From positions 25,626 through 89,625 of the IMG/VR virus record IMGVR_UViG_3300035661_000029: a stretch of DNA of 64,000 nt. One strand, 5' to 3'. The stretch comes from a virus. A program made the translations under genes and the position numbers. This document shows, piece after piece, positions 18,270 to 41,213 of this stretch (position 1 is its first letter; every line of letters starts with the position of its first letter). Below the pieces are notes generated by a model. It made no database searches, was not told the DNA's origin, and was given only the letters and a program-made list of their open reading frames with translations.

Positions 18270-21194
18270 TTAACGTCGCCCAGTTTGATAATCATAAGCA
18301 GTAGTACGTTGACCTGCCGCCATAGGTGAGAGCTGGGTGCCTCTTGTTCCGCTGTCCATTATCTGCTGAAGAATCTTGGCTGAGAGAGCTGTATTTTCAG
18401 CAATCATCGTCAGCTGTTGAATTGCCGCAGGATCAGATACATTATTGATTCCAGAAGCTGATGCTTGAGCTGGTTGTTCAGACTGGTTATTTACTGTTCC
18501 TGCTTGTGACCCATTGTCAGGCTGACCTGCGATTAAGGGAGAGTTAGGAGATGGTATGTTTGAGTTTCCAAACTCACCTATATGGCTGTAAAGGCCGTAA
18601 CCAGCTCCAGCAAGACCACCAATGACTGCACCAATTGGGCCAAGAAGACCGCCAAGAGCTGCACCTGAAAGAGCGTCAGCTCCAATTCCTGCAACGGCAC
18701 CAACATTGTTATATCCTGCTCCAGTAGCAAGATCACCACCAAGTCCAAGCAATGCGCCACCAAGTCCCATCTTAAGAGCACCGGGACCACGATTAGCTAC
18801 TCCAGCAGCAGCACTACCCACACCGCCCTTTAGAGTAGCAAGAAGCCCACCACCTGCAGCAAGACCACCTGCCGCAGACCCAGCAACAGTTGTTCCGGTG
18901 GTAGCTGCTGCACCACCCATACCAAGAAGTGATTTGACATTGCTAAGAAGTCCGCTACCAGCCATACTACCAAGAGATCGTGCTGCGAAGATAGACTGAA
19001 TGCCCAGTGCAGTAATAGCAAGGCCGGTCCCAGTGATAATTTTTACAAAGCCATTGTTAAAGAATGCCCCAATTGAATTTATAAAGGATGATGTTTCAGC
19101 GCCAATCTTGCTTCCTTGGGCTGCCTTAGCTGCAGCTGCAGCTTGCTCTTGACTTAGAAGAGCGTTGGACTGTCCAAGACGCGCAACTTCTTCATTACCC
19201 TTCAACAACTTGCCAAATGCACCATCAGGTTCAAATGCCTTGTGAAGAAGTTCTGTGCTAATCTGTCCAGAAATATTTCCAGTACCGGCGTATTGGTTAG
19301 CATTTTCAGCATTGCGCTTTGACATTTCAGGAAGAATTTTTCTCATCCATTCCTGATCTTGCTGCGAGGCTGCATTACCAGCAAGGATAGTTTGGTAAAG
19401 TCTATTTGCGTCTTCACTACCATAACCCAGTTGTTGAGCAAGTTGAGATAGTTGAGCTGCTTCTGTTACACGAGAGTCAATGTCCTCACGCTTTGCACTT
19501 TCCTGTTCTTGAACTAGCTGTTGAGCAAGTGCCAATGAACCAGTTCTAACCGCAATTTCCTGGGTGGCCAGTGTAATGCTCTTAGCATATTGAGCTGCTT
19601 GAGACTTACCTAGACCAAGAAGTGTTCTTGATACACCTTCTGAATTTAGAAGCGCGGTATGTACCTTGAAGAATTCATCTGCCGTAGCACCTGTTGCAGC
19701 TGATACTCTACTGAATGACTCTAATGTTGTATCAACAAAACCCCGTACAGCATTTTTATCTTGGAGGTCAACGCCACCAGAAGCAATCGCCATCTGAAGA
19801 GCTGGACCAATTAGGGTTGAAGACTGCTCAAGGTTGTAGCCAAATTTTTGGAATGATTCGCCGAGAGAAGCGCGCAGAACTGAAAACTGTTGCGGGCCAA
19901 GAAGTGCTAGGGCGTGCTGGTTGTCTTGAAGAAACTTTGTAGCTTGTTCGAAGCTTAGTCCCATTCTAACAGCTATTTCTGCAACTTGGCCAAAGCTAGC
20001 TGGCACCTGTGCCATATTGAATGATGTCAACTCATTATAGGTCTGCGTTAAACCATCCTTTAATCTTGCAGCGCCTTTTGCTGCTGCTGCATCGGATCCT
20101 AGATGCCGTAAAAATGTTCCAGTGATATCCTTTGAAAAGCCTTGCAATTTCATGGCAAGCCTTCCAGTAACCGTCGCCGCATCTTTCGCTGCAGTGTCAA
20201 GACGTAAAGTATCTACTTCAGCAGTTTTTGCAAAGTCAGAAAGTGCTGCGGCTGCTGTAGCTGTATCAGCAACAAAGTGTCTAATATCCGTATCAGAAAT
20301 TTCAATGCCATTAGAAGCCTTGAGACCGTTAATTGAATAACCCTTAACGGTAAGCTCCTTAACCGTTGCGAGAAGAACTTTACCGAGTTCATCCTCATGC
20401 CCAGCTGCAGCTGATCCTCTGAACGTCGCGCCTTGAGTGCTACCTAGTGAAGCTAGGTCATGAATGTTCTTGATACCAAGTCCGCTAAGTCCTTCAAAAT
20501 TCTTGGTGAGAGTTGTTCCAGCTTCGCCAAGTCTAGTGCGAAGTCTAGCAAAGTCTTCTGGTCCAAGGTTATCCCTGATACCACCTGCCAAGTCATCCCA
20601 CATCTGTTCTTGCTTAAGGAACTGCTCACTCATTCCATTAGCAGCATTGGATAATCTTTCAATAAAGACACCATATTCACCAGTGCCCTCTTCTAATCCC
20701 TTGTGATTGCTAATAAGAGATGCGCTTAGAAGAGACGCTGCCTGCTGTGACTTAGCAAGCTTAGATGAAAATGATGAGGAAGAGTCGACTAGCCGCTTGA
20801 TAGCCCATGCTTGCGCTGGTAGATCAAGACTTGCCATCTTAGCTACCCTGGTAGTGTATGCATCAAGGTAGTTAGTTGAATCCTTTATTGCCTCGGTGAA
20901 CTTTTTCTCGGCATTCTGATATTCTTGTGAAAGAACGTCTGCTTTGTAGTACGTCTCGGCTAGTTTGGTCAAACTGGCCGTAGATTGCTTTAGCGCCTTA
21001 AATGATTTCCTGAGTCCATCTGTTACATTGTCCTGAGCACTATCATTTTCCCTGTTGGATCGACGAGCCTTATCGCCAATGTATGGCTTCGAAGGAGCAC
21101 CAAAGCCAGACTTGCCCAATGCCCCCGCAGAGTGAAGAGCATCAGAGAAGGCCTTACTTAGTAGTTTTAAATCTGATTGATCTAGTGTCGCCAT
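18270..21194 (-). CDS. tail tape-measure protein candidate (gp29-like role)
   Basis: 974 residues. Long helical, Ala/Ser/Gln-rich N-terminal two thirds (heptad-like), followed by a hydrophobic Gly/Ala-rich region at about 725-880 (GLAITALGIQSIFAARSLG; GGALLGLGGDLATG; LLGPIGAVIGGLAGAGYGLY) and a disordered tail. That architecture is typical of tape-measure proteins, which set tail length and enter the cell envelope. At the usual ~0.15 nm per residue it predicts a tail of about 145 nm, longer than T4 with its 590-residue gp29. It is divergent from the gp26-like pair, the candidate tail assembly chaperones, which usually adjoin the tape measure gene. No direct similarity to gp29 was verified. 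Confidence 0.6.
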   Translation of the reverse strand: MATLDQSDLKLLSKAFSDALHSAGALGKSGFGAPSKPYIGDKARRSNRENDSAQDNVTDGLRKSFKALKQSTASLTKLAETYYKADVLSQEYQNAEKKFTEAIKDSTNYLDAYTTRVAKMASLDLPAQAWAIKRLVDSSSSFSSKLAKSQQAASLLSASLISNHKGLEEGTGEYGVFIERLSNAANGMSEQFLKQEQMWDDLAGGIRDNLGPEDFARLRTRLGEAGTTLTKNFEGLSGLGIKNIHDLASLGSTQGATFRGSAAAGHEDELGKVLLATVKELTVKGYSINGLKASNGIEISDTDIRHFVADTATAAAALSDFAKTAEVDTLRLDTAAKDAATVTGRLAMKLQGFSKDITGTFLRHLGSDAAAAKGAARLKDGLTQTYNELTSFNMAQVPASFGQVAEIAVRMGLSFEQATKFLQDNQHALALLGPQQFSVLRASLGESFQKFGYNLEQSSTLIGPALQMAIASGGVDLQDKNAVRGFVDTTLESFSRVSAATGATADEFFKVHTALLNSEGVSRTLLGLGKSQAAQYAKSITLATQEIAVRTGSLALAQQLVQEQESAKREDIDSRVTEAAQLSQLAQQLGYGSEDANRLYQTILAGNAASQQDQEWMRKILPEMSKRNAENANQYAGTGNISGQISTELLHKAFEPDGAFGKLLKGNEEVARLGQSNALLSQEQAAAAAKAAQGSKIGAETSSFINSIGAFFNNGFVKIITGTGLAITALGIQSIFAARSLGSMAGSGLLSNVKSLLGMGGAAATTGTTVAGSAAGGLAAGGGLLATLKGGVGSAAAGVANRGPGALKMGLGGALLGLGGDLATGAGYNNVGAVAGIGADALSGAALGGLLGPIGAVIGGLAGAGYGLYSHIGEFGNSNIPSPNSPLIAGQPDNGSQAGTVNNQSEQPAQASASGINNVSDPAAIQQLTMIAENTALSAKILQQIMDSGTRGTQLSPMAAGQRTTAYDYQTGRR

Positions 21195-22322: not shown

Positions 22323-22351
22323 AAAGGGCTCCCTTAAATAAGGAGCCCTTT
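22323..22351 (+). terminator. intrinsic terminator after gp26 pair (bidirectional)
   Basis: Ten-bp perfect stem AAAGGGCTCC / GGAGCCCTTT with a nine-nt loop; lies 38 nt past the plus-strand stop and can also end the minus-strand transcript from the polymerase-like operon. Confidence 0.85.
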
Positions 22352-22493: not shown

Positions 22494-22773
22494 TTAGCAT
22501 TGCTCTTGTAAGTCTAGATGAAATGATTTTTGACGGTGTCCGGCAATAACCAATAAACTATTCATTGACTTGGCCCATGTCAGTGACTGCTGAACACCCT
22601 TCTAGGAAAGAATGATAGCCCATTCTGTAAATCCTAATGCTCTATTGCACCGATCATGGAGTACGGCTCGAATATTACCACTATCATGGCAGTGGTCTAA
22701 TACTGCGTCTTCAGTGTCTAAATTATTCCCGCACAACGGCCAAATATTATTTTGTGAATCTAATAGTAATCAT
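22494..22773 (-). pseudogene. degenerate recombination endonuclease VII (gp49-like) remnant
   Basis: In the otherwise gene-free 22.35-22.81 kb stretch, one minus frame encodes PLCGNNLDTEDAVLDHCHDSG then NIRAVLHDRCNRALG. This is the endonuclease VII pattern (CxxC ... LDHxHxxGxIRxxLCxxCN). The two outer cysteines are changed (Trp and His in their places), the frame has no start codon (an ATG at 22773 is one base out of frame), and an in-frame TAG (22602) interrupts it after EWAIILS. The frame then continues protein-like to TAA 22494. T4 gp49 resolves branched DNA before packaging. This copy looks dead; a functional one may be elsewhere in the genome. Confidence 0.6.
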
Positions 22774-22809: not shown

Positions 22810-24066
22810 TCACGCTTCAACACTCACGCGTAATTGGTGTAGCTCGTATATTTCATCTACGATTTTTTCAGGGTTGACCATAATCGCGCCATCTATTCCA
22901 TCGTGTAAATGCAATCCAGATTGGCCAACCATGTTCCATATTTTATATCTGCACTCACGCTCCCAGCCAAAATACATCTTGAAGATTTTCTTTTGGTTTT
23001 CACGTGAAGGTTTAATTTTCAACACATGCAAGCATAAATCTTTCTTAATGCTTTTAAACTGCTTTGCGATAGAGGATAGTTTATTCCCTATTACGATTAG
23101 ATCAGAAGGTAGTAAATCAGGATTCATTTCATGAACAATCCGTACTGCTTCAGATCTACCAGACCCGTTCATCATGAGTGCTGGGGTTGCGTTAGATCCA
23201 TTTGCTAAGGACATGATCAATCTTTTAACAAGAGAAATGTTGTCATCAGTAGGTTCTAACTTTAGGTCTCTACAAAGTTCAACGCGATAGTTTGTTTTAT
23301 CTTTATCCAAACGAACTAAGTCTGGGTACTTCATCGTCATCTTTGCTGGATTGTCTTTATACTTTGGTGCAATCGTTTTGATAATGAACTGGCAATAAGC
23401 ATTTTCGATGTCAATCACTCTGCCAAATAGCATCGTGCGCAACCAACCAGGCCACATCTCAATTGCCTTGATAGGCCAAACAGACTTATCGCGTGCAAGC
23501 AGAGTGCCAGCTCGTTCATAGTAGAACTTGTGGGTCTCTTGCTTTAGAAGCCATCTTACAGCTGGGATAAGGTCCTCACGTTCTTCATCCTCTAAGCGTC
23601 GAATGACAGCTACTGAAATTCCTGGCTGTATCTTGACTGTTGATACAGTTAGGTTCTCATCTGTCGGTGGAAGTCCTGGCGCAAATTGAACTTCATCAAT
23701 GATGTTGATGATTGCTGCCATCATCTTACCACTCAATCTCTTCGGGCTTATTTGAGTTGCTTGCTTGTTGCCATTACCGAAATTGTAACCGATCTGGTTT
23801 ATCGTGAAGAATTTCTCAAGGATAACTTTCGCATCCTTGACTTGTTTAGTCAAAGAGGTAATTAGCACTTCTTCGCCGATAAAACCAGGAGCGGCAGAAT
23901 TCCGTTTAGTTAATCGATACCAAGCTACAGCCATTGATAAGATTAGACCTTGCCGCTGCTTTCGTTTTCTCCACCACATGCCATCAAGATTAAAGAAATT
24001 GCCGACGAACAGAGGATTATCACGATTCAAATCTTGTTCTACTTCTACAGGGTGGAATACTAACAT
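22810..24066 (-). CDS. palm-domain nucleic-acid polymerase-like protein (unassigned family)
   Basis: 418 residues, not a known T4 protein. Three motifs stand in polymerase order: motif A-like RVIDIENAYCQFI (Asp219), motif B-like LVKRLIMSLANGS (Lys281, Gly290), and motif C-like LHLHDGIDGAIMV (Asp389), with a WERECRYKIW helix before it. The arrangement, including YPDLVRLDKDKTNYR between A and B, recalls family-A-derived viral polymerases of the TV-Pol kind, where motif C is also HDG or DG. The N-terminal 200 residues have no recognised domain, and no 3'-5' exonuclease motif was seen. It ends a three-gene operon after a 73-aa protein and a nucleoside deoxyribosyltransferase-like enzyme (junction TGATG). 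Function as DNA polymerase, primase or transcriptase is inference. Confidence 0.5.
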   Translation of the reverse strand: MLVFHPVEVEQDLNRDNPLFVGNFFNLDGMWWRKRKQRQGLILSMAVAWYRLTKRNSAAPGFIGEEVLITSLTKQVKDAKVILEKFFTINQIGYNFGNGNKQATQISPKRLSGKMMAAIINIIDEVQFAPGLPPTDENLTVSTVKIQPGISVAVIRRLEDEEREDLIPAVRWLLKQETHKFYYERAGTLLARDKSVWPIKAIEMWPGWLRTMLFGRVIDIENAYCQFIIKTIAPKYKDNPAKMTMKYPDLVRLDKDKTNYRVELCRDLKLEPTDDNISLVKRLIMSLANGSNATPALMMNGSGRSEAVRIVHEMNPDLLPSDLIVIGNKLSSIAKQFKSIKKDLCLHVLKIKPSRENQKKIFKMYFGWERECRYKIWNMVGQSGLHLHDGIDGAIMVNPEKIVDEIYELHQLRVSVEA

Positions 24067-24557
24067 CAGAGTTCAGTGTAATGTTTCTTGATAGCTTTTA
24101 CAAGCTTTGAATATTCATCTACTAATTGTATACCATATCGCTTGCATACAATATCTACGTTGCCTTTACGAAAATAACCTTCAGGGCAACATACGATTAC
24201 AGTTTTATCTGGTTGGAACTGCTGCTGCTCTGCTTGCATGCCAAGTTCCATTAGAGTAATGGGTGACGTAGTTTTAGGATCAAAATAAAATATAACCAGA
24301 TCAGCACGGTCAAGTGCATCTAATTCCCAGATAACTTGAGCTCTAAAATTATCATTCACAATAGTTTGTGCCCACTTCGGGTCCCAGTCATCTCGTCTAG
24401 GATTAAATGCTACTGCAACTAACTGATGAAGATCATAAATAAGCTTTTTCTGCCAATCTTCAGCAGTTCCCATCTCAATAGAACCAGCTAAGAATATTGT
24501 CAAGACATTTGGATTAACCGCCTCAACTGCTGCAGGTGGTTGAAGAACTTTGATCAC
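24066..24557 (-). CDS. nucleoside 2-deoxyribosyltransferase-like protein
   Basis: 163 residues. Features of the family: IFLAGSIEMG near the start, AFNPRRDDWDP, then WELDALDRADLVIFYFDP and SPITLMELGMQ, where the Glu of MELG is the expected nucleophile. Such enzymes swap bases on deoxynucleosides or hydrolyse them and could supply modified bases or salvage nucleotides; a cytosolic role is expected. It overlaps the 73-aa gene (4 bp) and the polymerase-like gene, so all three are co-expressed. Confidence 0.8.
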   Translation of the reverse strand: MIKVLQPPAAVEAVNPNVLTIFLAGSIEMGTAEDWQKKLIYDLHQLVAVAFNPRRDDWDPKWAQTIVNDNFRAQVIWELDALDRADLVIFYFDPKTTSPITLMELGMQAEQQQFQPDKTVIVCCPEGYFRKGNVDIVCKRYGIQLVDEYSKLVKAIKKHYTEL

Positions 24558-24775
24558 GGCATTGCCCTCTTTTTCATTGCTTTATAAACTGCCTGACCAC
24601 ATTCTGGTTTGAGCACACTTTGCTTTACTGAAGTCATTGTGCCCATCACCACATCATCCATGGTAGAACGATCATGCGAGATGCTTCCTCCCACCTTCCA
24701 TTCCTTATCTACTACACCCTTGTCTTGCATGACTCTAGTGAGCTGACGAAGTTTCTTTGCTTTCTTACTGTTCAT
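24554..24775 (-). CDS. small basic hypothetical protein
   Basis: 73 residues, first gene of the polymerase-like operon. Starts MNSKKAKKLRQLTRVMQDK; lysine/arginine-rich helix, then a less ordered part (HDRSTMDDVVMGTM) and a basic end. No family recognised; nucleic-acid contact is plausible from charge only. Confidence 0.55.
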   Translation of the reverse strand: MNSKKAKKLRQLTRVMQDKGVVDKEWKVGGSISHDRSTMDDVVMGTMTSVKQSVLKPECGQAVYKAMKKRAMP

Positions 24776-24823: not shown

Positions 24824-25276
24824 ATGCTTAATAAATCAAAATATTCTACCTGGTACACTTCGATAATAGAACGTGCTAAGCACCGTGAAATTCAAAAGCC
24901 TTTTGAAAAACATCACATCATACCTAAATCATGTGGTGGCAAGGGAAAACTCATACTGAAGATGCAAAAATCAAAATGTCTGAATCTGCTAAACTAAGAA
25001 AAAGGCCGGCCACGTCTGACGAAACTAAGGCCCGCATATCTAAAGCAAATAAAGGCAGAAGAATGTCTGAAGAAAACATACTTAAACGCACAGGCGAAAA
25101 GAGATCAGAAGAAGCACGGTTCAATATGTCTCAAGCACAACTAGGCAAAAAACTTTCAGAAGAAACAAAAAAACAAACAGTCCTTAGCTCTAAAGGGGCG
25201 AAAATTTTCTCCAGAACATTTAGCAAAACTCAAAATATCAGCTCAAAATAGATCTAAAAAATGCCAGAAAACTTAG
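24824..25276 (+). pseudogene. HNH homing endonuclease remnant
   Basis: Starts at ATG 24824. The N-terminus YSTWYTSIIERAKHRE - FEKHHIIPKSCGG is the first half of a phage HNH domain. The rest of the HNH core is missing; after a frame change the reading goes straight to GKTHTEDAKIKMSESAK and NUMOD3 repeats (for example DETKARISKANKGRRMSEEN). A second frame change near 25190 leads to KGRKFSPEHLAKLKISAQN and a TAG at 25276, overlapping the convergent minus gene. Deletion of the catalytic core plus two frameshifts means it is inactive. Confidence 0.75.
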
Positions 25277-25913
25277 GGTTAAGATGGGAGTCAACATGCT
25301 CCACAATATACCCGTGATGGCGCTTATACAATAATACTTCCCATCTATTAGCACTTGCTGTTCCTAACTTACCAAGCTTGGGCCGCAAGATGATAAAACT
25401 GATTTGATCTGGAGGGATAACCAAATTCTCTACATAGACTGGTTCTTGCGCGTTAGCAAACTCAATCTTATGAAGCGTTCTAACTTCCTTCCTAATCATC
25501 TTATCATCTCTAAGTCTAGGATGAGCATCCTTTACTTCACTAATCTCAAATGTTCCAGACGGGAACTGTGCAGAGTGGTGAGAGCTTGGGCTAGGAGTGA
25601 TCAAAGTTTTCTTTCCTTTATTCTTAGAAAGATAACTAATGAGCGCATCAATAAATGCTGTCCTAGCTCTAAAGCTAATTGCCGGTCTCTGTGTTCCCAA
25701 AGCTGTTTCCATTTGCTCCTTCGTAGGTGAGAAGAACATCGTGCTGCCGAACTGCTTAGCTATCCATGGTCCTAAGAATGTTACTGCACGAGAATACTGT
25801 TCATAGTAACATGCGACAATCTTAAGCAAATCTGAAAACTCTGTTGTTGGACGATAGACATCAAGTTTAGCATTCCAACGGTTAATATCCTCTACTGTCT
25901 TTGCATTATCCAT
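25254..25913 (-). CDS. hypothetical protein
   Basis: 219 residues, no recognised family. Mixed alpha/beta; includes TRWEVLLYKR-type C-terminal strands (ANRWEVLLYKRHHGY) and a KIEFANAQEPVYVEN strand. The start ATG overlaps the stop of the nuclease gene by one base, so the pair is probably co-translated and may cooperate in DNA metabolism. Its 3' end overlaps the HNH remnant on the other strand. Confidence 0.6.
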   Translation of the reverse strand: MDNAKTVEDINRWNAKLDVYRPTTEFSDLLKIVACYYEQYSRAVTFLGPWIAKQFGSTMFFSPTKEQMETALGTQRPAISFRARTAFIDALISYLSKNKGKKTLITPSPSSHHSAQFPSGTFEISEVKDAHPRLRDDKMIRKEVRTLHKIEFANAQEPVYVENLVIPPDQISFIILRPKLGKLGTASANRWEVLLYKRHHGYIVEHVDSHLNPKFSGIF

Positions 25914-26464
25914 TATACACTGCTCCCATACCAGAAGCTTGGGACCTGCAAAAGATCATCAAGATAAAATATGTCTAATGACCGAGCACCTTGTGATATT
26001 GTCATACGTTCTCTTTCGGGCCTGCTGTCTTCACCACTAACAGCAACATAGACAGGTGTATGGTTCCATTTAAACACCAGGATAGGTTTCTTGTTAGTCT
26101 TAGCAGCATCGATAACTGATTCTTCAAACCATTTGAAGATGTTTGAGTTGCCTGCAACCATTGTTTCAAAGCTATCTGACTTAGCATAAGATTTGCATTC
26201 AATAGACCAATGGAATACTGTTTGAGTATCTTTTTCATTTGTAGGAACAACATCACCCACGAAAAGCTTCATAGCATCTTCACCGAACATCTTACCAAAG
26301 ATTTCGAAGTTCTTACCACCTACGCGCGCCCCGCTCTGGGGCGCGCGTATAAAGGTAAGAGGCGCAAGCGCAGTTGATAATTTCTTTGCTACTGTTAATT
26401 CAAATCCATTGCCTTTCCCCTTGGAATTAAATCTCTTTTTCTTATCCGTCTTTTCGACTGTCAT
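25913..26464 (-). CDS. PD-(D/E)xK nuclease, resolvase-like
   Basis: 183 residues. GNGFELTVAKKLS near residue 18 (conserved Glu), IRAPQSGARVGG, GDVVP (Asp) and WSIECKSYAK (E-x-K) give the full E...GD...ExK pattern of small restriction-like nucleases such as archaeal Holliday-junction resolvases. Likely acts on phage or host DNA; the substrate is unknown. Its presence next to a decayed endonuclease VII suggests a possible alternative resolvase. Its start overlaps the end of the upstream GIY-YIG gene by 23 bp. Confidence 0.7.
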   Translation of the reverse strand: MTVEKTDKKKRFNSKGKGNGFELTVAKKLSTALAPLTFIRAPQSGARVGGKNFEIFGKMFGEDAMKLFVGDVVPTNEKDTQTVFHWSIECKSYAKSDSFETMVAGNSNIFKWFEESVIDAAKTNKKPILVFKWNHTPVYVAVSGEDSRPERERMTISQGARSLDIFYLDDLLQVPSFWYGSSV

Positions 26465-27164
26465 TTTGAGCCTTTCTCATTTTAGTTACCTGCCTATAAG
26501 GAATTCCCAAAACGATAGATGCTAGTTGACAGGATTTGTATTCAACCCCATCTATAATTATTGGTATTGCATTAATGGGAGTTCTTCCGATATTTTGTTT
26601 TCCTATGTGAGCCATGTTTTCTGCTCTCATAGGATTTGTATTTTGCTGAGCTAAGGACATCCGTTTTTTAGTTTCTTCGGATTTCTTTATTCCCCTTAGA
26701 CCTTCAGATGTTTTTCTTTTGTGCTCTTCACTAAGTGCAATACCCTTTTTCCCTTTACCATAAAGAGCATTTCGCTCTTCTTGAGTAAGGGATTTGGCAT
26801 GCTCCTTAAGTGAAGTAGAAATCTTGGCCCCTATTTCATTCTTTCTTAAGAATGTTTCAGGGCCCCATCCACCTTCAGCTCTAGCAATGTTAAAAATCGG
26901 TATTTTACTTTCTCTATACAAATCAATCCAATAATTCTCTCTAAGAAAGAAATATTTCTTGTCATACTCGCCCAGCTCTTCTTTAATAGAATATTCAAAT
27001 TGTTCCGCACCGTATTTGTTCCATGCACTTTGCAAATTTCTGTTAAAGTGAGTTTGCTTAATAAGCATTCCTCTATGCTCATCCCACCGAGTATGAAGGT
27101 TCTTTGCTGAACCAATATAAGTCTTGTTGTTTGTTTTGCAAAAAATAAAATATATTCCACCCAT
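26442..27164 (-). CDS. GIY-YIG homing endonuclease (intact)
   Basis: 240 residues, the only intact mobile endonuclease in the window. MGGIYFIFCKTNNKTYIGSAKN gives both GIY and YIG elements, with Arg (LHTRWDEH) and Glu-containing helix (LRENYWIDLY). NUMOD3-type repeats follow (SEEHKRKTSEGLRGIKKSEETKKRMS), then a NUMOD1/HTH-like end (EYKSCQLASIVLGIPYRQVTKM). It lies between gp46 and the nuclease gene. Oddity: an exact late promoter lies only five bases before the start codon, so its mRNA would be almost leaderless. Confidence 0.88.
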   Translation of the reverse strand: MGGIYFIFCKTNNKTYIGSAKNLHTRWDEHRGMLIKQTHFNRNLQSAWNKYGAEQFEYSIKEELGEYDKKYFFLRENYWIDLYRESKIPIFNIARAEGGWGPETFLRKNEIGAKISTSLKEHAKSLTQEERNALYGKGKKGIALSEEHKRKTSEGLRGIKKSEETKKRMSLAQQNTNPMRAENMAHIGKQNIGRTPINAIPIIIDGVEYKSCQLASIVLGIPYRQVTKMRKAQNDSRKDG

Positions 27165-27206: not shown

Positions 27207-27327
27207 CTACGTTAGTCTGTAGCCAAACCACCACATATCAAGTCTTACAGTCCATTTACTGTCATGTTGGCAGAAACCAAATCGCGTCATTCAGCTGTCC
27301 TGGTGTCATTGGAACTCTACTTATCAT
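27207..27327 (-). CDS. one or two very short ORFs after gp46
   Basis: ORF 1: ATG at 27327 overlaps the gp46 stop (ATGA), 21 residues (MISRVPMTPGQLNDAIWFLPT). ORF 2: ATG at 27290 with AGGA eight bases before it, 27 residues (MTRFGFCQHDSKWTVRL... RLT) ending at TAG 27207. Deleting one T at the TTT near 27275 would fuse them into one 39-residue protein. Both parts look coding; whether two microproteins or one broken gene is open. Confidence 0.35.
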
Positions 27328-29084
27328 GTTACTCCTAACTCAGAACCACTCTCATCTAGAATTCTAGAGAAGCCATTCTCTTTACGAACAATAACCGTTC
27401 TATCAAATCTTCCTACTGCTTCTGGGCGGTGAGAGATAATCCAAAGCCCGAGATGTTCATCTCTAGCTTTAGTCTTTAGTAGTTTAAAAATACTTTCAAC
27501 ACCAGACCCGTCTAATGAAGCATCAATCTCGTCTATGAATAAACAATTTACCCATGAGTGAAGGTGATGAAGCACATCTCTGAATGCTAATGATAGGGAA
27601 AGGTTGACTCGCTTCTTTTCACCACCAGATAGATTACCGAAATCTAGTTCACGCCCATATTCAGAAACTGTGCAGCTCATGTCATCATCAAACTTTACAA
27701 CGTGAGGAAGACCTGTCTCTTTTGTATAGAGCATAAGCTGCTTGTTCAAGAAAGGAATTGTCTTGCTGATAATCTTACGACGAATGAACGAGTTCTTATC
27801 TGTAAGAAGCTTCAGCAAGAATTGCTGGTGCTCTAATTCCTTTCGAATGTTATCCAAGTCAGAGTACGAAACAGTCTTGACTGCTTGCGACTTCAGCTGT
27901 TCATGAGCTTCAATGTGAGGGTTTGCAGACGCAACGAGATCATCGATCTTAGACTGCGCGGTGAGAGCAGAATTTTCTGCTTTGATTGCTGCTTCTAAGC
28001 TAGAAAACTGCATAACCTCTTTAGCTGCAGCCTGCTGATCTTCTAGCTCGATAGATTCTGTAGTCTTGTTATCAATCTTAGCAGTAAGATCAGCAAGCTG
28101 GCTCTTCTTACGCTCGAATAACTTCTGCTTTTCTACCAGCTTATCTGCAGCACCTGCATACGCTTGCAAACAGTAAGGACACTTAGCTTCTGTCAGATGC
28201 TTTAATTCGCCATCAAGCTTCTTCGCATCATTTGACATTGCAAGTTTTTCAGTTCTAAGAACTTGAAGCTGAGCATTTATCTCACGTTCTTGCTTTGCTA
28301 AGTCAGCTACCAGAGCGTGGAGTTCCTTTTCCTCAGCCATATTAACTTGCTGCACCCGATGAAGTTCACTGCGCAGAATGTTAACTTGCTTTTCACGATC
28401 TTCATCCCACCGAAATACACGAGCAGCCGCATCTTTTAGCTGTCGATTGTAGAGAGCTACTTGGCCTTCTTGTTCCTTGATGATAGCTTCTTGAATTGCA
28501 ATGCTACCTTCAGTTGTCTTGATGATTTCCTTTAGCTTAATCGCCTTCTCCGTAAGCATGGTGATGTTGAAGAGCTCTTCAATTTGCGCACGCTGTTGTG
28601 AGACAGGCATTTGCAGGAATGGAGTCGAACTTCCAGAGAAGATAACAACCTTAGTGAATAGTTCGTAGCTCATACCAACTATCTCGCATATGAACCTATC
28701 ATTCTCTGTAACACTATCAAGTGTTACATCTTCACCATTCATTGATATATTGATGTTGAAAGTTTCACCACGTTGCCGGAGGATTTCAAACACATCTTTG
28801 CCCTTTTCAAAGGTCAATCTAACTTCCATCAAAGTGTTCTTTGAACTGTTGGTAGTGTTAATCAGCTTTTGCAGAGAGATGTTATCGAATGGTTTGTTAT
28901 AGAGAGCATAACAGATTGCATTTAGAATAGTTGTTTTTCCGCATCCATTCGCTCCACCAGTATCTGCATTATCTCCCTGAACAAGGGTGCTCGTGGTATC
29001 AGAAAGATCAATTTCAATAGCCACGTTGCCAAACGATAAAAAATTTCGCAAAGACAAAGATTTAAATTTAAAAGGTGTGCTCAT
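27324..29084 (-). CDS. 46: recombination endonuclease subunit gp46 (Rad50/SbcC-like ATPase)
   Basis: 586 residues (T4 gp46: 560). With gp47 it resects DNA ends for recombination-dependent replication and degrades host DNA. Walker A GGANGCGKTT at 43-52, long coiled coil with zinc hook CPYC near the middle, ABC signature NLSGGEKKRVNLSLSL, Walker B CLFIDEIDASLDG and the switch His in WIISHRPE. Start FKFKSLSLRNFLSFG is typical. Overlaps the small terminase-like gene by four bases. Confidence 0.95.
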   Translation of the reverse strand: MSTPFKFKSLSLRNFLSFGNVAIEIDLSDTTSTLVQGDNADTGGANGCGKTTILNAICYALYNKPFDNISLQKLINTTNSSKNTLMEVRLTFEKGKDVFEILRQRGETFNINISMNGEDVTLDSVTENDRFICEIVGMSYELFTKVVIFSGSSTPFLQMPVSQQRAQIEELFNITMLTEKAIKLKEIIKTTEGSIAIQEAIIKEQEGQVALYNRQLKDAAARVFRWDEDREKQVNILRSELHRVQQVNMAEEKELHALVADLAKQEREINAQLQVLRTEKLAMSNDAKKLDGELKHLTEAKCPYCLQAYAGAADKLVEKQKLFERKKSQLADLTAKIDNKTTESIELEDQQAAAKEVMQFSSLEAAIKAENSALTAQSKIDDLVASANPHIEAHEQLKSQAVKTVSYSDLDNIRKELEHQQFLLKLLTDKNSFIRRKIISKTIPFLNKQLMLYTKETGLPHVVKFDDDMSCTVSEYGRELDFGNLSGGEKKRVNLSLSLAFRDVLHHLHSWVNCLFIDEIDASLDGSGVESIFKLLKTKARDEHLGLWIISHRPEAVGRFDRTVIVRKENGFSRILDESGSELGVT

Positions 29085-29482
29085 TTAAAATATTCTATAG
29101 AACGTGTCTTATTGTGATAAATTGACGGGAGTAAAGCGCCTACCATATCCTCATTCATCTCTACTAAACGATGTATGAACACATAGCTAAGTGCTCTACC
29201 CTTTAGATGGTTAGAAGTATAAATGAATTGTATCCTACTTCCATTATCAAACTCTGTGATCATGCGAGTTTTTCTAATTAATTTTGCAAATGCCATCCAC
29301 ACCGGAACAGTAGCATGCGCTGCCCAAATATTGTTTGATATTTGGGCAGCAAAAGAAAATTTAGGAACTATAAAAGCAACATTCTGGTGTGGATAGAAGC
29401 AACACACTCGTAGTGCTTGATGAATCGCTTCTATGTCCGAGCATGTAATATCGGAATCAAATTGTTCTTTAAAGCTGGCCAT
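29081..29482 (-). CDS. terminase-large-subunit-like fragment, catalytically degenerate
   Basis: 133 residues from ATG 29482 (MASFKEQFDSDI), inside the end of gp47; a longer frame to 29560 is rejected. The central part resembles the second half of a gp17-type packaging ATPase: NVAFIVPKFSFAAQISNN, then ITEFDNGSRIQFIYTSNHLKGRALSYVFIHRLVEM (compare T4 ELDNGSSIGAY - RGNSFAMIYIEDCAF). Walker A is absent and the Walker B acidic pair is replaced by His-Arg. It lies between the gp46 and gp47 genes with overlaps on both sides, so it is co-expressed with the nuclease complex. Role unknown. Confidence 0.6.
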   Translation of the reverse strand: MASFKEQFDSDITCSDIEAIHQALRVCCFYPHQNVAFIVPKFSFAAQISNNIWAAHATVPVWMAFAKLIRKTRMITEFDNGSRIQFIYTSNHLKGRALSYVFIHRLVEMNEDMVGALLPSIYHNKTRSIEYFK

Positions 29483-30491
29483 AAATTTCAATAAGTTTGC
29501 TAGCATTAATCGTAGTAGTGCCGGAGATACCTGTTTGAAGCATTCTGATAACAGCATCATTCAATGATCCCATATCAAAGTCTTCCATCTCTTCACCAGC
29601 AATTGCTTCCTTACGTTCAGCAGAGTTTTCTTCTAAAGAGAATTCACGAAGTCCTAATGTCTTAATCATTTCTTCTCGTAGTGTTTGCGCTTCTGAATAA
29701 CCAACGTCGATGTCAATCAAACAACGAACACGACACTTAGCAGGAAAATCTAGCTGACCATTCAACACATCAGACAATTTAACCTTTCGATACTTGGGGC
29801 AATCACCCCAATCAATAAATGAAACGTCGTCATCTTGTGCATCCAGAATACACATGCCTCGCGCATCATCCCACACATCACCATAATTAGTAGGAAACGT
29901 ATTGCCGATGTAAATGACATTATCTTGCATTTGGCGTTTGTGATAATGCCCAGAAAAAAGATATTTAGGTATTTTAAAGAGCGAATGGTCTGGTCCATGG
30001 TCCATTCTCCTATCAGTTCCAGTCACCACAAAATTTCTAAATTCAAAATGTCCAAATACATAATCTGGCTTTTCTTTCTCTATCAAACTAGCAGCGTTAG
30101 CATATTCGTCCTTGAACAAATATGGGAAAAACATCATCTTACCAACTTGCATAGGTTCATTAACCAAGATGATATTTTTAAACTTAGAATAATGATACGT
30201 AGAAAACTGATTTCTATTTTCGCGGTGAAACAAATCGTGGTTGCCAACACAAAAATATATTGGAATATTCAGTTCATCTAATTTTGCTAATGAATCAAAG
30301 GATTTATTAAGTGTTTGGATATTAACACTATTCCGATTTTCGAACCAATCCCCAAGAAAACAAATAGCCTTACAATTATTTTCAATTAAATTTTTAATAA
30401 ACCAATCTATATATTCAGCACAATCAAGATTGTGCTGAATAGAATTATTTTTAGCACCCCAATGAATATCAGTCATTAATGCTATTTTCAT
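29469..30491 (-). CDS. 47: recombination endonuclease gp47 (Mre11/SbcD-like)
   Basis: 340 residues (T4 gp47: 339). Metallophosphoesterase motifs in order: MTDIHWGAKN, FLGDWFENR, CVGNHDLFHRE, FGHFEFRN and FSGHYHKRQ. Partner of gp46. First gene of the three-gene gp47 - small ORF - gp46 series, 58 nt after gp55. Confidence 0.95.
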   Translation of the reverse strand: MKIALMTDIHWGAKNNSIQHNLDCAEYIDWFIKNLIENNCKAICFLGDWFENRNSVNIQTLNKSFDSLAKLDELNIPIYFCVGNHDLFHRENRNQFSTYHYSKFKNIILVNEPMQVGKMMFFPYLFKDEYANAASLIEKEKPDYVFGHFEFRNFVVTGTDRRMDHGPDHSLFKIPKYLFSGHYHKRQMQDNVIYIGNTFPTNYGDVWDDARGMCILDAQDDDVSFIDWGDCPKYRKVKLSDVLNGQLDFPAKCRVRCLIDIDVGYSEAQTLREEMIKTLGLREFSLEENSAERKEAIAGEEMEDFDMGSLNDAVIRMLQTGISGTTTINASKLIEIYGQL

Positions 30492-30549: not shown

Positions 30550-31344
30550 TTATTTACCCTTAGCAACTTTGGCAGTCCTTTTAGCAGCCTTTACTGGTGC
30601 TACATCTTCTTTCTGTGCTCGTGGTTTTCTTGGCTTTGGTTCAGGTTTGGGTTTGATTGTAATGTTTCCATCTGCATCAATTTCAATGTCTTTCGGACCG
30701 TAACGTGTAACAGGTCCAGGAATTCTGTGCTGATAGCGGTACTTCGCTTCTTTCAGTGTCTTCGGAATGAATTCAACGTCCGCTTCACCGATAGATTCAA
30801 CTGCTGGCACGACAAGTTCAGCTGCAGTTTCTGAATCAAGCGTGGCAAGCCCATCTTCATCCAGCTCTGGAAGAAAGTACTCATCGGATTCCTTGACTTC
30901 AAAGAACGATTCATCCTTCTCATCGTCCATAAAGTTGAAGCTTGGGTTCGAACCTGCATCAATCAACAAGGCATCGCGTAGATTTCGGTGCTTCTTCTCA
31001 TCAGCTAGGTACTGGAGGAAGGAGTTGTGAATGGCAGTGGTGTAGTAAGAGAAAGGATTGTTGTACTTTTCGGGATTGAACTTAAGTGCATTATTGCACA
31101 GGTTCATTACAGCCGCAGACACCATATCTTCTCTGAATGAGTACCCGATAAAGTTTGCCTTACGGGAATACCGCTCGGCAATCATTTGAATCATACGGAT
31201 TAGCTTGTTCGTTACCAGATTTTGCGCTTTGGCTTCGATAACGGCTGGGAGTAGTACAGCATTGGTGACATAATGTCCCTTCGTAGAAGTAGATTTTTCT
31301 CTCTTCTGCTTAGACTTCTTCTCTTTTATTGTTTTTGTAATCAA
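30550..31344 (-). CDS. 55: late transcription sigma factor gp55, C-terminally extended
   Basis: 264 residues (T4 gp55: 185). It directs host RNA polymerase to TATAAATA promoters. Matching region: YSFREDMVSAAVMNLCNNALKF, NNPFSYYTTAIHNSFLQYLADEKKHRNLRDALL and PSFNFMDDE. The extra C-terminal ~110 residues hold an acidic part and a conserved-looking FIPKTLKEAKYRYQHRIPG, then a Lys/Pro-rich basic tail (KPKPEPKPRKPRAQK). T4 gp55 binds the sliding clamp through its C-terminus, so the changed tail may alter activation. Preceded by a sigma70-like promoter, consistent with pre-late expression. Confidence 0.88.
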   Translation of the reverse strand: MITKTIKEKKSKQKREKSTSTKGHYVTNAVLLPAVIEAKAQNLVTNKLIRMIQMIAERYSRKANFIGYSFREDMVSAAVMNLCNNALKFNPEKYNNPFSYYTTAIHNSFLQYLADEKKHRNLRDALLIDAGSNPSFNFMDDEKDESFFEVKESDEYFLPELDEDGLATLDSETAAELVVPAVESIGEADVEFIPKTLKEAKYRYQHRIPGPVTRYGPKDIEIDADGNITIKPKPEPKPRKPRAQKEDVAPVKAAKRTAKVAKGK

Positions 31345-37058: not shown

Positions 37059-37430
37059 ATGGCAACATCACTCTACAATGGCTTTTCTACTGCAAACTGG
37101 ATGGCGAACAGAACGTTCGGCTTGAAGGATATAGAGCTTGTGAAGCAAGACTTGTTGAACCATATCTACACGATTAAGGGTCAGCGCCTCATGATGCCTA
37201 ACTATGGCACAAGAATTCCAATGATGGTGTTTGAGCCAAATGACGATAATACGCGCCAGATTATTGAAACAGATCTGACAGAAGTGTTTAACTACGATCC
37301 ACGTGTTAGCGTTATTTCACTTCAAGTGCTCTCCCTTCCAAACAACAATGCCATTCTAGCGATGGCCGATCTTTTGTATGTTGAGTTCAACGTACGTGAT
37401 GTCCTCAATATTGAAGTACCTACAAAATGA
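37059..37430 (+). CDS. 25: baseplate wedge gp25
   Basis: 123 residues (T4: 132). GPW/gp25 family: DIELVKQDLLNHIYTIKGQRLMMPNYGTRI, FEPNDDNTRQIIETDL and LYVEFNVRD near the end. Serves as the sheath-attachment point in the inner baseplate. Overlaps gp6 by four bases, the same gene pair order as in T4-like wedges. Confidence 0.9.
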   Translation: MATSLYNGFSTANWMANRTFGLKDIELVKQDLLNHIYTIKGQRLMMPNYGTRIPMMVFEPNDDNTRQIIETDLTEVFNYDPRVSVISLQVLSLPNNNAILAMADLLYVEFNVRDVLNIEVPTK

Positions 37431-40400
37431 CCATTAGAACCACATACGCAGCTGAAGCATGGGATAAGGTTTATGATGCTTTTTCTCAGATTAATTTCAC
37501 GTCATATGATTACGATACTGTTAAGGAATCTCTTCTTCAGTACCTGAAAATTTATCACGCTGAACACTTCAATGACTTCATTGAAAGCTCTGAACTTATC
37601 GCTGTTCTTGAAATGTTCGCGTACGTTGCTGAACTTTTGGCATACCGCGTTGATACGATGGTACATGAAAATTTCATCACTACAGCTCAGCGCAAGCAGT
37701 CTGTCCTTAAGCTCGCAAGACTTATTTCCTACACAGCAGCGCGTAACATTCCTGGTAGAGGTTTGGTAAAGATTAACACTGTAGTTACTTCAGAAGCAGT
37801 TTATGACTCTCTTGGTAACAACCTTGCTAACACCACTATCACGTGGAATGATCCAAACAACAGTAACTGGAAGGAACAGTTCTTCCTTGTTATGAACAAG
37901 GCCCTGACATCTAAGTTTGGTAATCCATCAAAGGCGTTCCAGATTGGCGACGTGTCGATGCAGCTCTACACGCTGAACAATGACCTTAACGCTTTCAGAA
38001 ACGGTGTGCTCGCCTTCAGCGTTGCAGGTAATTCTTCTCAAGTTCAAATGGAACTTGTTCCAGCTGACATTGATTCAAATGGTCCGTTCGAGCGGGCTCC
38101 TGATGCTAACGCTCAGTTCAATATCATCTACGCTTCTGATGGCAAGGGTGATGGCTCTGACTTTACTGGCTTCTTGGGGTTCGTAAAGCAGGGGTCAATG
38201 GTCCTTACTAACTACTTAATCGCATCTCCCACTGCAAACCGTAGAATTGAGCTTGACCCAATTAATGTAAATGACACCGACGTCTGGGTATATCGTGTTG
38301 ATGACAATGGAACCATCCTCGAGAATTGGCTTCGTGTTGAAGCTCTTAATGAGCAGAACCTTTACTTCAATGATGTTACATCAACCCGCAAAAAGTATGA
38401 AATTTCAACTCTTGAAAATGATGCAATTGCTTTGTTGTTTGGGGATGGTAACTTTAGCGACATGCCCGTTGGAACGTTTCAATTTTGGACTCGTGTCTCA
38501 CTTAACCAAGACGTTAATATTCCAAAGAACACAATCGTTGGCCAGCCAGTCAGCTTCTCTTATGTCAACCAAGTAAATGTTGGACAGACATTCGGATTTA
38601 CATTCTCACTAACTGCGGCAATTCAAAACAATGCCGCGTCTGAGAACATCGAACACATTCGTCAGTCAGCTCCTTCGACTTACTATTCACAGAACAGAAT
38701 GGTAAATGGACAAGACTATAACACCTACCCACTTAAGGACTCTACGATCCTTAAGCTTAAGACAATTAACAGAACCTTTGCCGGTCAGCCAAAGTACATT
38801 GAGTGGAATGACTCTTCTCTTACGTATGAAAATGTAAAGTTGTTCGGCGATGACCTCAACATGTCCTACAGCATTACCGCCGACATGGTTGAAACTCGTC
38901 TAGCAGCTAAAACTCTTATTGACACGTTTCTTGAGCCGCTTCTTCAGTCAAATGCGCTTCTCAACTGTCTTGTTCACATCATGGCAACCAGTGCCGGTTC
39001 CTACGGTATCATCAGCTACCCACGTCGAAAATTCATTGAAGACAACCGCCAAATATACAAGAACATTGATGGAACGTTTGTTAACCCGTATGGTTCTCTT
39101 TCAACTGGTAATGGTAGTTTGAATGAAAAGACAGCTATCCAGGCAGCCATTGATGGTCACTGGTATGGTGACCCTCTTGGATATGCTACGATCAATGGTA
39201 TCCAGCACGGCATCATCGCTGACCCTATTCTTAACCCAATGGATGATGGTAAGCTTTACCTACCAAGCCTGCCAAGAACTATTGACGGTCTTAACACCTA
39301 CCCACCAGGAGATACTGGTTCGAACCTTCAAGCTTTGAACGCGCAGGAATCGTTTGGACTTCGCTTCAACCGGTTCCTTGCTGCCTTTGGTGGTGGAACG
39401 ATTGCGCTTGTTGACCAAGCTGGTGTTACTGCCGTTAGCAATGCAACGCCATCCTCAGCTGTTGGCGTTGATTACTACAAGCACAAGGTAGAAGTTATCA
39501 CCATCGAAATGACTTCTGATGCTACTACATTCACCGTAATTAGTAGCATTCGTGGTAAACTTCATGACTACAGCTTGTCAGCAGTTAATACGCGCTGGTC
39601 TGTACAGGCTGGTTTAACGAGCTATCCATTTGACTTCATCATCACAAATGATCTAGCAAATCAATTCTCGGCTGGTGATGCATTTGTGATTGACATTAGC
39701 TACACTGGTACCGCGTGGCAAGCCCTAGTAAGAAACTTTAATCCGGCAGGAACTGCTGTTTACAAGGCAAACCTTAATGGCTGGTGGGAACTTATTTCCC
39801 ACAGTGAGCTTCTTGCAGGTGGAATTACATCAGCTACTGAACTTTCAACTGTACAACAAGCTAACTTTGACCCTAATGACAGCGTAAATGCTTGGGTGTT
39901 CATGGTCTCTAGAAACATAAACTCAACAACGGGTGAAGTTGATAGCTGGTCAATCTACAATCGTAACATGAAGATTATCGCGGCGAGCACAGCGACAAAA
40001 TTTTGGTATAACCAAGATGTGCAGATCATTGACTCATCTACCAAGAAGCCACTTTATGACAAGATCAGAGTTCTGCGTTCTAATCTTGATGAGTTTGGTA
40101 AGCCACTTAAAAAGGCTGACATCTATGATACTGTTGGTTTCGTTTATGATGAGAATGGCGTGGTGAATTACAATCAAATCGAAGTTCTTCCTACTGATAC
40201 AATTACATTTGCACAAGCTGGTGATAAGACACCTGACAACATTCTTCAATTTAGCGCATTCTCAACTGACCAATTTTCGTTCTACCTTGTAAATGTGTCA
40301 ACGGCTGGCATGCAGTCACTTGGAAGTCAACTTACTGCTTCGGAGTATACGTACACTTCAGCGTACGACATTACTGATTATGCTAACAACTACAGCTATG

Positions 40401-41140
40401 ATGCTGGTACAATAGTCGTGCCATCGCTTGGATACACATTTACCTTTACAGCTGGCGCCATGCTTTCTGATTCTCAGCCTACCTCAGGTCCGCTATATCA
40501 AATAATGAGATTGAGAACTATATCAACTCTTGATTTTATGTGGCAGCACTTTAGCCCAGTGACTCACTTGGTTGATCCATCCGTTACTAATATCCATGAT
40601 GCATTCTTGATGACTCGTGGATACTACAACAACGTTATGGACTACGTACATGGTCTTTCAAGCGTGGTTCCACAACCACCAACACCACTAGAACTTCGCA
40701 CCTCATATGGTTACCTTCTTGCTAATAAGATGCTTTCAGACACAGTTGTTCTTCACTCGGGCAAGATTAAGCTGCTGTTCGGTGCTTTAGCTGATCAAAC
40801 TCTTCGCGCTAAGTTCAAGGTTGTTAAGTCAGCAACTGCCACCTTCTCAGATGAACGCATCAAGGCTGAGATTGTAACTGTTATTGATACACTGTTTGAC
40901 ATCCAAAACTGGGATTTTGGTGATTCCTTCTACGCTACAGAGCTTATCTCTCTTATTCACCAGAAGCTGTCAACTCAAATAGCTTCTGTTGTTTTGGTTC
41001 CACTGTACTCAGTGAATTCATTTGGCTCGTTGTTTACAATTAACTCCGGTTTTGATGAGATTCTTCAGTCCGCAGCTACGGTAAATGATATTGAGATCGT
41101 TACTGCATTAACTCCTACTGTTCTTAGACAAAACAGGTAA
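37427..41140 (+). CDS. 6: baseplate wedge gp6, enlarged
   Basis: 1237 residues, nearly twice T4 gp6 (660). The N-terminal part matches the Mu gpJ/gp6 type: SLLQYLKIYHAEHFNDFIESSELIAVLEMFAYVAELLAYRVDTMVHENFI, TAQRKQSVLKLARLISYTA, and later QNRMVNGQDYNTYPL. gp6 dimers form the ring that controls sheath contraction. Nucleotides about 39478-39710 encode a copy of the dispersed FxxGDxFxxxI beta-module. The C-terminal KIKLLFGALADQTLRAKFKVVKS - INSLIHQ part is conserved-looking. Confidence 0.85.
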   Translation: MTIRTTYAAEAWDKVYDAFSQINFTSYDYDTVKESLLQYLKIYHAEHFNDFIESSELIAVLEMFAYVAELLAYRVDTMVHENFITTAQRKQSVLKLARLISYTAARNIPGRGLVKINTVVTSEAVYDSLGNNLANTTITWNDPNNSNWKEQFFLVMNKALTSKFGNPSKAFQIGDVSMQLYTLNNDLNAFRNGVLAFSVAGNSSQVQMELVPADIDSNGPFERAPDANAQFNIIYASDGKGDGSDFTGFLGFVKQGSMVLTNYLIASPTANRRIELDPINVNDTDVWVYRVDDNGTILENWLRVEALNEQNLYFNDVTSTRKKYEISTLENDAIALLFGDGNFSDMPVGTFQFWTRVSLNQDVNIPKNTIVGQPVSFSYVNQVNVGQTFGFTFSLTAAIQNNAASENIEHIRQSAPSTYYSQNRMVNGQDYNTYPLKDSTILKLKTINRTFAGQPKYIEWNDSSLTYENVKLFGDDLNMSYSITADMVETRLAAKTLIDTFLEPLLQSNALLNCLVHIMATSAGSYGIISYPRRKFIEDNRQIYKNIDGTFVNPYGSLSTGNGSLNEKTAIQAAIDGHWYGDPLGYATINGIQHGIIADPILNPMDDGKLYLPSLPRTIDGLNTYPPGDTGSNLQALNAQESFGLRFNRFLAAFGGGTIALVDQAGVTAVSNATPSSAVGVDYYKHKVEVITIEMTSDATTFTVISSIRGKLHDYSLSAVNTRWSVQAGLTSYPFDFIITNDLANQFSAGDAFVIDISYTGTAWQALVRNFNPAGTAVYKANLNGWWELISHSELLAGGITSATELSTVQQANFDPNDSVNAWVFMVSRNINSTTGEVDSWSIYNRNMKIIAASTATKFWYNQDVQIIDSSTKKPLYDKIRVLRSNLDEFGKPLKKADIYDTVGFVYDENGVVNYNQIEVLPTDTITFAQAGDKTPDNILQFSAFSTDQFSFYLVNVSTAGMQSLGSQLTASEYTYTSAYDITDYANNYSYDAGTIVVPSLGYTFTFTAGAMLSDSQPTSGPLYQIMRLRTISTLDFMWQHFSPVTHLVDPSVTNIHDAFLMTRGYYNNVMDYVHGLSSVVPQPPTPLELRTSYGYLLANKMLSDTVVLHSGKIKLLFGALADQTLRAKFKVVKSATATFSDERIKAEIVTVIDTLFDIQNWDFGDSFYATELISLIHQKLSTQIASVVLVPLYSVNSFGSLFTINSGFDEILQSAATVNDIEIVTALTPTVLRQNR

Positions 41141-41159
41141 TCACATTTTTGGGGCTTTG

Positions 41160-41189
41160 AGAAGTTGGATAAATATCATATCAACTTCT
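41160..41189 (+). promoter_or_regulatory. late promoter (GATAAATA at 41168-41175) inside an inverted repeat
   Basis: GATAAATA 38 nt upstream of the giant wedge gene, flanked by an 8-bp perfect inverted repeat AGAAGTTG (41160-41167) / CAACTTCT (41182-41189). Confidence 0.55.
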
Positions 41190-41213
41190 TAGACTATTTG
41201 AGTACGCCCACAT

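Follow-up and report, generated by a model that had tools for sequence, protein, structure and literature searches.

POL, a protein of 418 residues encoded in a 64,000-nucleotide stretch of virus DNA (the window, which belongs to a virus record of 89,625 bp), is predicted to fold as a minimal family-A-type palm and fingers. It is a very divergent branch, since neither the sequence libraries nor the profile comparisons gave a convincing match. Its carriers are T4-type (PolB) jumbo phages, known here from environmental DNA alone, and POL is additional to their T4-type replisome. The most economical reading is that POL is a proofreading-less accessory DNA-directed DNA polymerase for recombination-linked synthesis and repair, which we judge to be evenly poised between right and wrong. 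A primase ranks second, and we give less weight to an RNA polymerase, an inactive protein, and a mobile passenger.

POL is a real gene under purifying selection. Its reading frame opens with ATG and contains zero internal stops, and the start overlaps the stop of the upstream gene by one base (TGATG). Codon comparison with two relatives gave dN 0.075 and dS 0.729 for L002 (dN/dS about 0.1), and dN 0.077 and dS 0.694 for L003. In addition, a 239-kb IMG/VR contig contains a 17,254-base stretch identical to the window. The preliminary description had recognized a 418-residue protein with three ordered motifs, and these lie as described: DIENAYC from residue 219, KRLIMSLANGS from 281, and LHLHDGIDG from 385. 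Successive profile scans found relatives encoded at 58 IMG/VR loci with identity down to 29%, and a further scan returned the same 58; the motifs are therefore more than chance.

An alignment of 46 sequences (the window and 45 of the 58 loci, with 13 identical, near-identical or partial copies excluded) revealed that Arg192, Asp219, Lys281, Met285, Asn289, Gly290, Ser291, His388, Asp389, and Gly393 are each invariant in 46/46, the putative catalytic residues among them. Gly390 and Asp392 are each conserved in 45/46. Residue 224 is aromatic in all 46 sequences (41 Tyr, 5 Phe), an acidic residue always stands two positions past Asp219 (Glu in 25, Asp in 21), and Asp256 is kept in 37/46.

The AlphaFold2 model computed from this alignment had a pLDDT of 92.1 and a pTM of 0.81. 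All structure results come from it; a model from 5 close sequences had a pLDDT of 49 and was discarded. DSSP assigned to the N-terminal part a helix (32–53), a strand (65–67), two helices (69–75 and 79–86), and two strands (87–91 and 104–108). This order of elements in residues 30–110 resembles a winged helix-turn-helix, suggesting that the predicted domain may bind DNA; a sequence search with the N-terminal part gave no convincing match. A thumb-like helix pair (151–160 and 164–174) comes next in the model. Motif A forms a strand (217–220) succeeded by a helix (223–236) and a helical fingers region that reaches to about residue 314. Beyond it are long helices (320–349 and 355–379), the His-Asp pair of motif C in the turn between strands 385–387 and 390–392, a helix (399–410), and a strand (414–417). 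This predicted succession of elements matches a palm (an RRM-like core) in which the fingers follow the first strand as an insertion.

Superposition by VIA-align placed residues 131–418 of the model on Pol theta (Z 12.0, 247 residues, 4.2 Å), while KlenTaq gave Z 11.8 and T7 DNA polymerase Z 10.6. The best 50 entries among the 687 aligned chains, which Foldseek had preselected, were all family A DNA polymerases. T7 RNA polymerase (RNAP) was outside the best 50 fold matches listed, which carries no weight as evidence. Foldseek alone gave zero PDB matches at E ≤ 0.001; its best two were both family A (7sxq_B with E 0.041, the next with E 0.30). Against viral models it gave four matches at E ≤ 0.001, including a replication protein of Pyramimonas orientalis virus. 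The topology, together with a fold alignment spanning both residues, suggests that Asp219 and Asp389 would be close together in the predicted structure. The predicted fold thus contains a family-A-type palm, and at this level the new phage branch of family-A-derived palm polymerases proposed earlier stands, with the libraries giving no convincing match.

Sequence searches were carried out with the window protein against Pfam, PHROGs, NCBIfam, and PADLOC, with 28 aligned members against Pfam and PHROGs, with two or three further members against NCBIfam/PADLOC, and as a sequence-profile search of the PDB, and none returned a convincing match. Weak single-member matches (best E 0.0034 in Pfam, 0.004 in PHROGs, 0.005 in NCBIfam) were judged to be chance. 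A significant match to PF00476 (DNA_pol_A) was absent from the window protein and the 28 members. Pfam and PHROGs likewise found no exonuclease, helicase or nuclease domain, which bears out the earlier statement that POL contains no recognized exonuclease or helicase. No relatives were found in GTDB genomes or plasmids, nor in named phages apart from one match with E = 9, and tblastn with three POL proteins matched no phage of the divPolA2 (AUR84708) group. A description of the family was not found in open-licence papers.

The HMM-HMM comparison proposed in the preliminary description made no connection either. Using hhalign, POL was compared with 8 phage PolA, 13 divPolA2, and 5 TV-Pol-like rows and with T7 RNAP; the probabilities were 0.1% for divPolA2 (small alignments), 0.3% for the TV-Pol-like set (5 rows of low diversity that presumably represent TV-Pol), and 1.2% for T7 RNAP. 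These negatives carry little weight because the control comparison of PolA with T7 RNAP failed too, although divPolA2 against PolA gave 56.7%.

Compared with family A (Pol I, Pol theta, T7 DNA polymerase; PF00476), POL shares the predicted palm and fingers topology, the motif A Asp, the hairpin-turn His-Asp of motif C, and the fingers-helix Lys. Unlike family A, it has no profile-level similarity and no exonuclease, and its predicted thumb is small. Five residues past the motif A Asp, POL has Tyr/Phe whereas family A has Glu (T7 gp5 IDASGLE); motif B of POL contains Asn-Gly, and motif C reads HDG rather than the HDE of family A. An aromatic ribose gate is typical of PolB and reverse transcriptases, and the Tyr/Phe at +5 from Asp219 recalls it. 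The RxxxK fingers feature of superfamily A/TV-Pol is missing: Lys281 is present in 46/46 sequences, but residue 277, four positions earlier, is Arg in only 8 (Ile 26, Arg 8, Leu 5, Lys 3, Met 2, and Ala 1 being the six commonest of 46).

The missing RxxxK and the reduced thumb would be expected if POL were a palm protein that had lost catalysis and been retained to bind DNA or act as a scaffold. Against this, the putative catalytic residues are invariant in sequences with identities down to 29%, and we consider such a protein quite improbable.

A scan with the motif B profile of POL singled out T7 RNAP, whose segment SVTKRSVMTLAYGSK at 628–642 scored 22.0, a value reached by 0/433 control ORFs. 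No other enzyme tested matched motif B as well, and family A DNA polymerases were not singled out. Specifically, Lys281 and the residues at +4, +8, and +9 (Met, Asn, Gly) have the spacing of T7 RNAP motif B (Lys631, Met, Tyr, Gly). Gp030 of Ma-LMM01 scored 16.4, and 14/433 control ORFs scored as high, an unreliable count given that two of the four listed are copies of gp030 itself (L104 and L105); the other two are ORFs of L049/L058 with a score of 18.8. The controls as a whole contain near-copies and unannotated ORFs. Summed A + B + C scores did not separate the known family A enzymes (control ORFs scoring >60 dropped), and scans of motif A, motif C or the hairpin singly gave no useful signal.

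The motif B match, together with a neighbourhood gene that has a sub-threshold sigma-70 match, would suit a single-subunit-type RNA polymerase or RNA-primer maker. However, the position five residues past the motif A Asp is Tyr/Phe in 46/46 sequences where T7 RNAP has Gly (FDGSCSG), the Tyr of T7 RNAP motif B is Asn in 46/46, and the 418 residues of POL amount to less than half of the 883 in T7 RNAP. With the low hhalign probability added, an RNA polymerase appears improbable, if slightly less so than a dead protein.

Among minimal palm enzymes, TV-Pol is close in architecture to POL as far as the excerpts of PMC2579912 describe it. POL is likewise a stand-alone palm enzyme of about 400 residues without a nuclease domain, and its model contains the same anatomy of a two-helix thumb-like unit, an Arg-bearing hairpin, palm, and fingers. 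It differs in that no RxxxK is conserved, the fingers Asp (Asp256) being found in 37/46. The genomic contexts also differ: a D5-like helicase, resolvase, integrase or transposase for TV-Pol in those excerpts, and SbcCD, PDDEXK, and structural or T4-type genes among the annotated conserved neighbours of POL. By eye, VK...NG and HDG are seen in gp030 of Ma-LMM01, and DIEN, VK...YG, and HDG in a Polaromonas plasmid protein. The transposase neighbours of gp030, its motifs, and the text of PMC2579912 suggest that it is the TV-Pol of Ma-LMM01. The earlier label "TV-Pol-like" is therefore retained for the anatomy and the motifs read by eye, but the profile comparison does not extend it.

Two divergent phage enzymes described in the excerpts of PMC11348598 invite a similar comparison. 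DivPolA2 (AUR84708) is an extra palm protein of about 430 residues whose N-terminal domain belongs to no known type and, like POL, occurs in phages that also carry PolB; profile similarity to POL was not detectable against its 13 members. Its listed carriers are phages of about 80–140 kb, chiefly of Vibrio, Rheinheimera, and Aeromonas, and the excerpts name 110 barbavirus genomes, with more by PSI-BLAST. We found divPolA2 relatives in 266 phage records (tblastn; L060:25469-26761, minus strand), including Vibrio cholerae ICP1 with 41.7% identity. DivPolA1, like POL, is a divergent PolA present besides a regular polymerase in a replication neighbourhood; by its description there, the basis of this comparison, it retains an apparently inactivated exonuclease domain, which POL does not have. 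The CcPol-MP and PolA-SSB primases, compared by the descriptions excerpted from PMC7581432 and PMC10061031, are a case of a family-A-type catalytic domain used by mobile DNA; the context of POL is a T4-type phage, unlike that of these primases with their SSB partner.

The window's genes for the head, portal, sheath, and baseplate have their matches in T4-type families, including a gp23-type head and a gp20-type portal protein. Replisome genes were sought in 21 long records: the one to which the window belongs and 20 from relatives selected for carrying POL. PolB was found in 18/21, a gp61-type primase in 19/21, and a gp41-type helicase in 20/21 (19 strong, 1 with E 6.7e-5). All 12 records >200 kb (235–368 kb; two of them, G017 and G020, are near-copies) carry PolB, a gp61-type primase, and a strong gp41-type helicase. 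PF00476 PolA was found in 0/21, while the same search matched in 10/14 control genomes, and each of the 20 relative records contains one copy of POL. The coexistence of PolB, gp61, and gp41 with POL identifies it as an additional polymerase. That POL would accompany the family B replicase of a T4-like phage, as first supposed, is thus seen in 18 of the long records but not in the window's own 89.6-kb record, a fragment in which PolB, gp61, and gp41 were not found.

Table 1. Position of POL, its parts, and flanking elements in the window. Counts are based on 57 loci (56 and the window), two partial loci being omitted.
Feature	Position	Strand	Occurrence or basis
Terminator-like 12-bp stem-loop, could end the POL operon	22323..22351	-	Stem-loop scan
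44-aa endonuclease VII piece just downstream of POL	22602..22736	-	PF02945, E 4.6e-8, profile 29-65 of 82
POL, polymerase-fold protein (predicted), 418 aa	22810..24066	-	ORF, alignment, model, fold search
Motif C, residues 384-393 (GLHLHDGIDG); His388-Asp389 in predicted beta-hairpin turn	22888..22917	-	Model, alignment
Motif B, residues 277-292; Lys281 in predicted helix 274-288, then Asn-Gly-Ser	23191..23238	-	Model, alignment, motif scan
Motif A, residues 217-227 (VIDIENAYCQF), with Asp219 and Tyr/Phe224	23386..23418	-	Model, alignment
Predicted beta-hairpin before motif A, residues 178-197, with invariant Arg192	23476..23535	-	Model, alignment
Predicted N-terminal domain, about residues 30-110	23737..23979	-	DSSP of model
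Nucleoside 2-deoxyribosyltransferase-like gene, directly upstream of POL	24066..24557	-	17/57 loci, strand of POL
73-aa conserved protein, function not assigned	24554..24775	-	35/57 loci, strand of POL
219-aa conserved protein, function not assigned	25254..25913	-	42/57 loci, strand of POL
PDDEXK / RusA-like resolvase	25913..26464	-	39/57 loci, strand of POL 39/39
SbcC/gp46-like ATPase	27324..29084	-	44/57 loci, strand of POL 44/44
SbcD/gp47-like phosphoesterase	29469..30491	-	38/57 loci, strand of POL 38/38

The genes flanking POL include several associated with recombination and repair (Table 1). Members of the endonuclease VII family, including a 176-aa protein in L020, occur in 9/57 loci and are on the strand of POL in 9/9. 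The baseplate gene (52/57 loci) and a 74-aa gene (47/57) are on the opposite strand in every case. Terminator-like stem-loops were found at two sites against a shuffled mean of 2.1, a count not above chance. In G019/L057 POL is followed by gp61 after 6 bases and gp61 by gp41 after 2, while in G007/L026 three listed ORFs, one of them on the other strand, separate POL from gp61-gp41.

For POL we infer catalysis, dNTP use, co-transcription, and a recombination or repair role. The enzyme would combine a minimal palm and fingers of the family A type with a small thumb-like helix pair and an N-terminal, possibly DNA-binding, domain, and would have no proofreading nuclease. Nucleotide addition would proceed by a two-metal mechanism with Asp219 and Asp389. 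The fingers helix would bind the incoming triphosphate through Lys281, and Tyr/Phe224, five residues past Asp219, would exclude ribose. Working beside the PolB replicase, POL would act in the recombination pathway encoded around it: gp46/gp47 would resect ends, strands would invade, POL would then extend the 3' ends or fill gaps, and the PDDEXK and endonuclease VII resolvases would cut the junctions.

Several observations weigh against this accessory polymerase. There is no sequence-profile link to any polymerase family, Foldseek alone gave no PDB match at its threshold, and RxxxK is missing. PolB, gp61, and gp41 are absent from the fragment to which the window belongs, and among ten POL-less records PolB and gp61 were both found in 1 (332 kb) and neither in the other 9, which are fragments of 54–164 kb. 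In addition, the joint action of the neighbours is deduced from context, and the adjacency to gp61-gp41 would equally suit primer handling.

The latter point leads to the main rival, in which POL is a primase or primase-polymerase that initiates new strands on a single-stranded template, perhaps aided by a small partner. In the excerpts of PMC7581432, PMC10061031, and PMC2579912, CcPol-MP of SCCmec is reported, and TV-Pols are proposed, to be primases. A minimal palm enzyme without an exonuclease, the resemblance by eye of its motifs to two TV-Pol-like proteins, its position directly before gp61-gp41 in L057, and the possible DNA-binding nature of the predicted N-terminal domain are all consistent with priming. 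However, a gp61-type primase is already encoded in 19/21 long records. CcPol requires its partner MP for priming, according to the excerpts of PMC7581432 and PMC10061031, but an OB-fold partner was not found near POL: the 73-aa neighbour has no Pfam match and the 219-aa neighbour no PDB match or convincing Pfam match, and neither resembles anything convincing by sequence. Moreover, TV-Pols are said in the excerpts of PMC2579912 never to have neighbourhood links with nucleases, which POL has. We therefore regard a primase as unlikely, albeit the strongest competitor of the accessory polymerase.

To examine the inheritance of POL, the baseplate protein was used in a scan, and the best 80 of 175 matching loci were retained. 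POL is located downstream within 3 kb in 49 of these 80. It is missing in 15 of the 64 informative loci, these 15 having at least 5 kb of downstream sequence, and 16 further loci were too short. SbcC is found further downstream in 13/15 POL-less loci, as in POL-bearing ones, the flank being unseen in L180 and L189. The 15 loci include three pairs with identical baseplate proteins and are all fragments, so that absence may mean a contig end. No POL was found elsewhere in the fragmentary sequence of 17 records (the 15 and two short ones), and the same query matched 20/20 POL records. POL is unlikely to be an essential replicase because relatives with the same flanks lack it.

On a baseplate tree of 63 loci (48 of the 49 POL-positive loci; L185 was left out), the presence of POL needs 3 changes compared with 13.6 when shuffled, a contrast inflated by near-copies and identical loci. 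Distances between POL proteins correlate with those between baseplate proteins (r 0.87, 0/999 permutations as high; 39 distinct proteins over 380 residues). POL thus seems to be an optional gene that for the most part is passed down along with the phage. If it belonged to an inserted mobile or satellite element, its patchy occurrence at one site and the homing-endonuclease-type genes nearby could also be expected; few changes on the tree, the correlated distances, and the single copy in 20/20 records make this explanation highly improbable. The suggestion that POL replicates a satellite element found no support, since POL is syntenic and has diverged in step with the baseplate gene.

In the excerpts of PMC7824862, a survey of 224 jumbo phages, five polymerase types are distinguished, and split Pol III is the second polymerase in PolB phages of jumbo subgroup 2.2; a 2024 survey adds divPolA1 and divPolA2 (excerpts of PMC11348598). 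The POL family appears to be another type of second polymerase in giants of the T4 paradigm, missed by the sequence libraries searched. Its predicted structure would widen the range of minimal family-A-fold enzymes. POL also makes it more pressing to ask why an extra, optional, proofreading-less polymerase is retained by some phages, and its position beside gp46/47 offers a testable answer.

A bolder proposal is a phage counterpart of polymerase-theta-type end joining, formed by POL, the Mre11-Rad50 pair (gp47-gp46), and junction nucleases. POL, minimal and proofreading-less, would then anneal and extend resected ends, and giant T4-type phages would have a route for rejoining breaks that is distinct from gp43. 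With Tyr/Phe as its ribose gate instead of the family A Glu, POL would be an intermediate in polymerase evolution. Among the fold matches listed for POL, Pol theta comes first but ties with KlenTaq, and we hold this idea to be a long shot.

Other genes of the window were also observed. Among the repair genes are a NUMOD3-bearing ORF (24931–25251, plus strand) and a GIY-YIG homing endonuclease (26442–27164, minus strand), the latter in 5/57 loci. A 159-aa ORF (29081–29560, minus strand) lies between SbcC and SbcD, overlaps SbcD, and matches the terminase phrog_5989 (E 2.5e-7); its family occurs in 4/57 loci and perhaps reflects a shared mobile-nuclease segment. Upstream of SbcD, a 264-aa gene (30550–31344, minus strand) has a sub-threshold match to sigma-70 region 2 (E 0.0023) and is possibly a gp55-like late sigma factor. 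Beside the portal gene, a 974-aa protein (18270–21194, minus strand) without a convincing Pfam or PHROGs match belongs to a family present in 48/57 loci. Three successive very long ORFs (37427–53967, plus strand; 1237, 2871, and 1393 aa) perhaps encode tail or fibre proteins.
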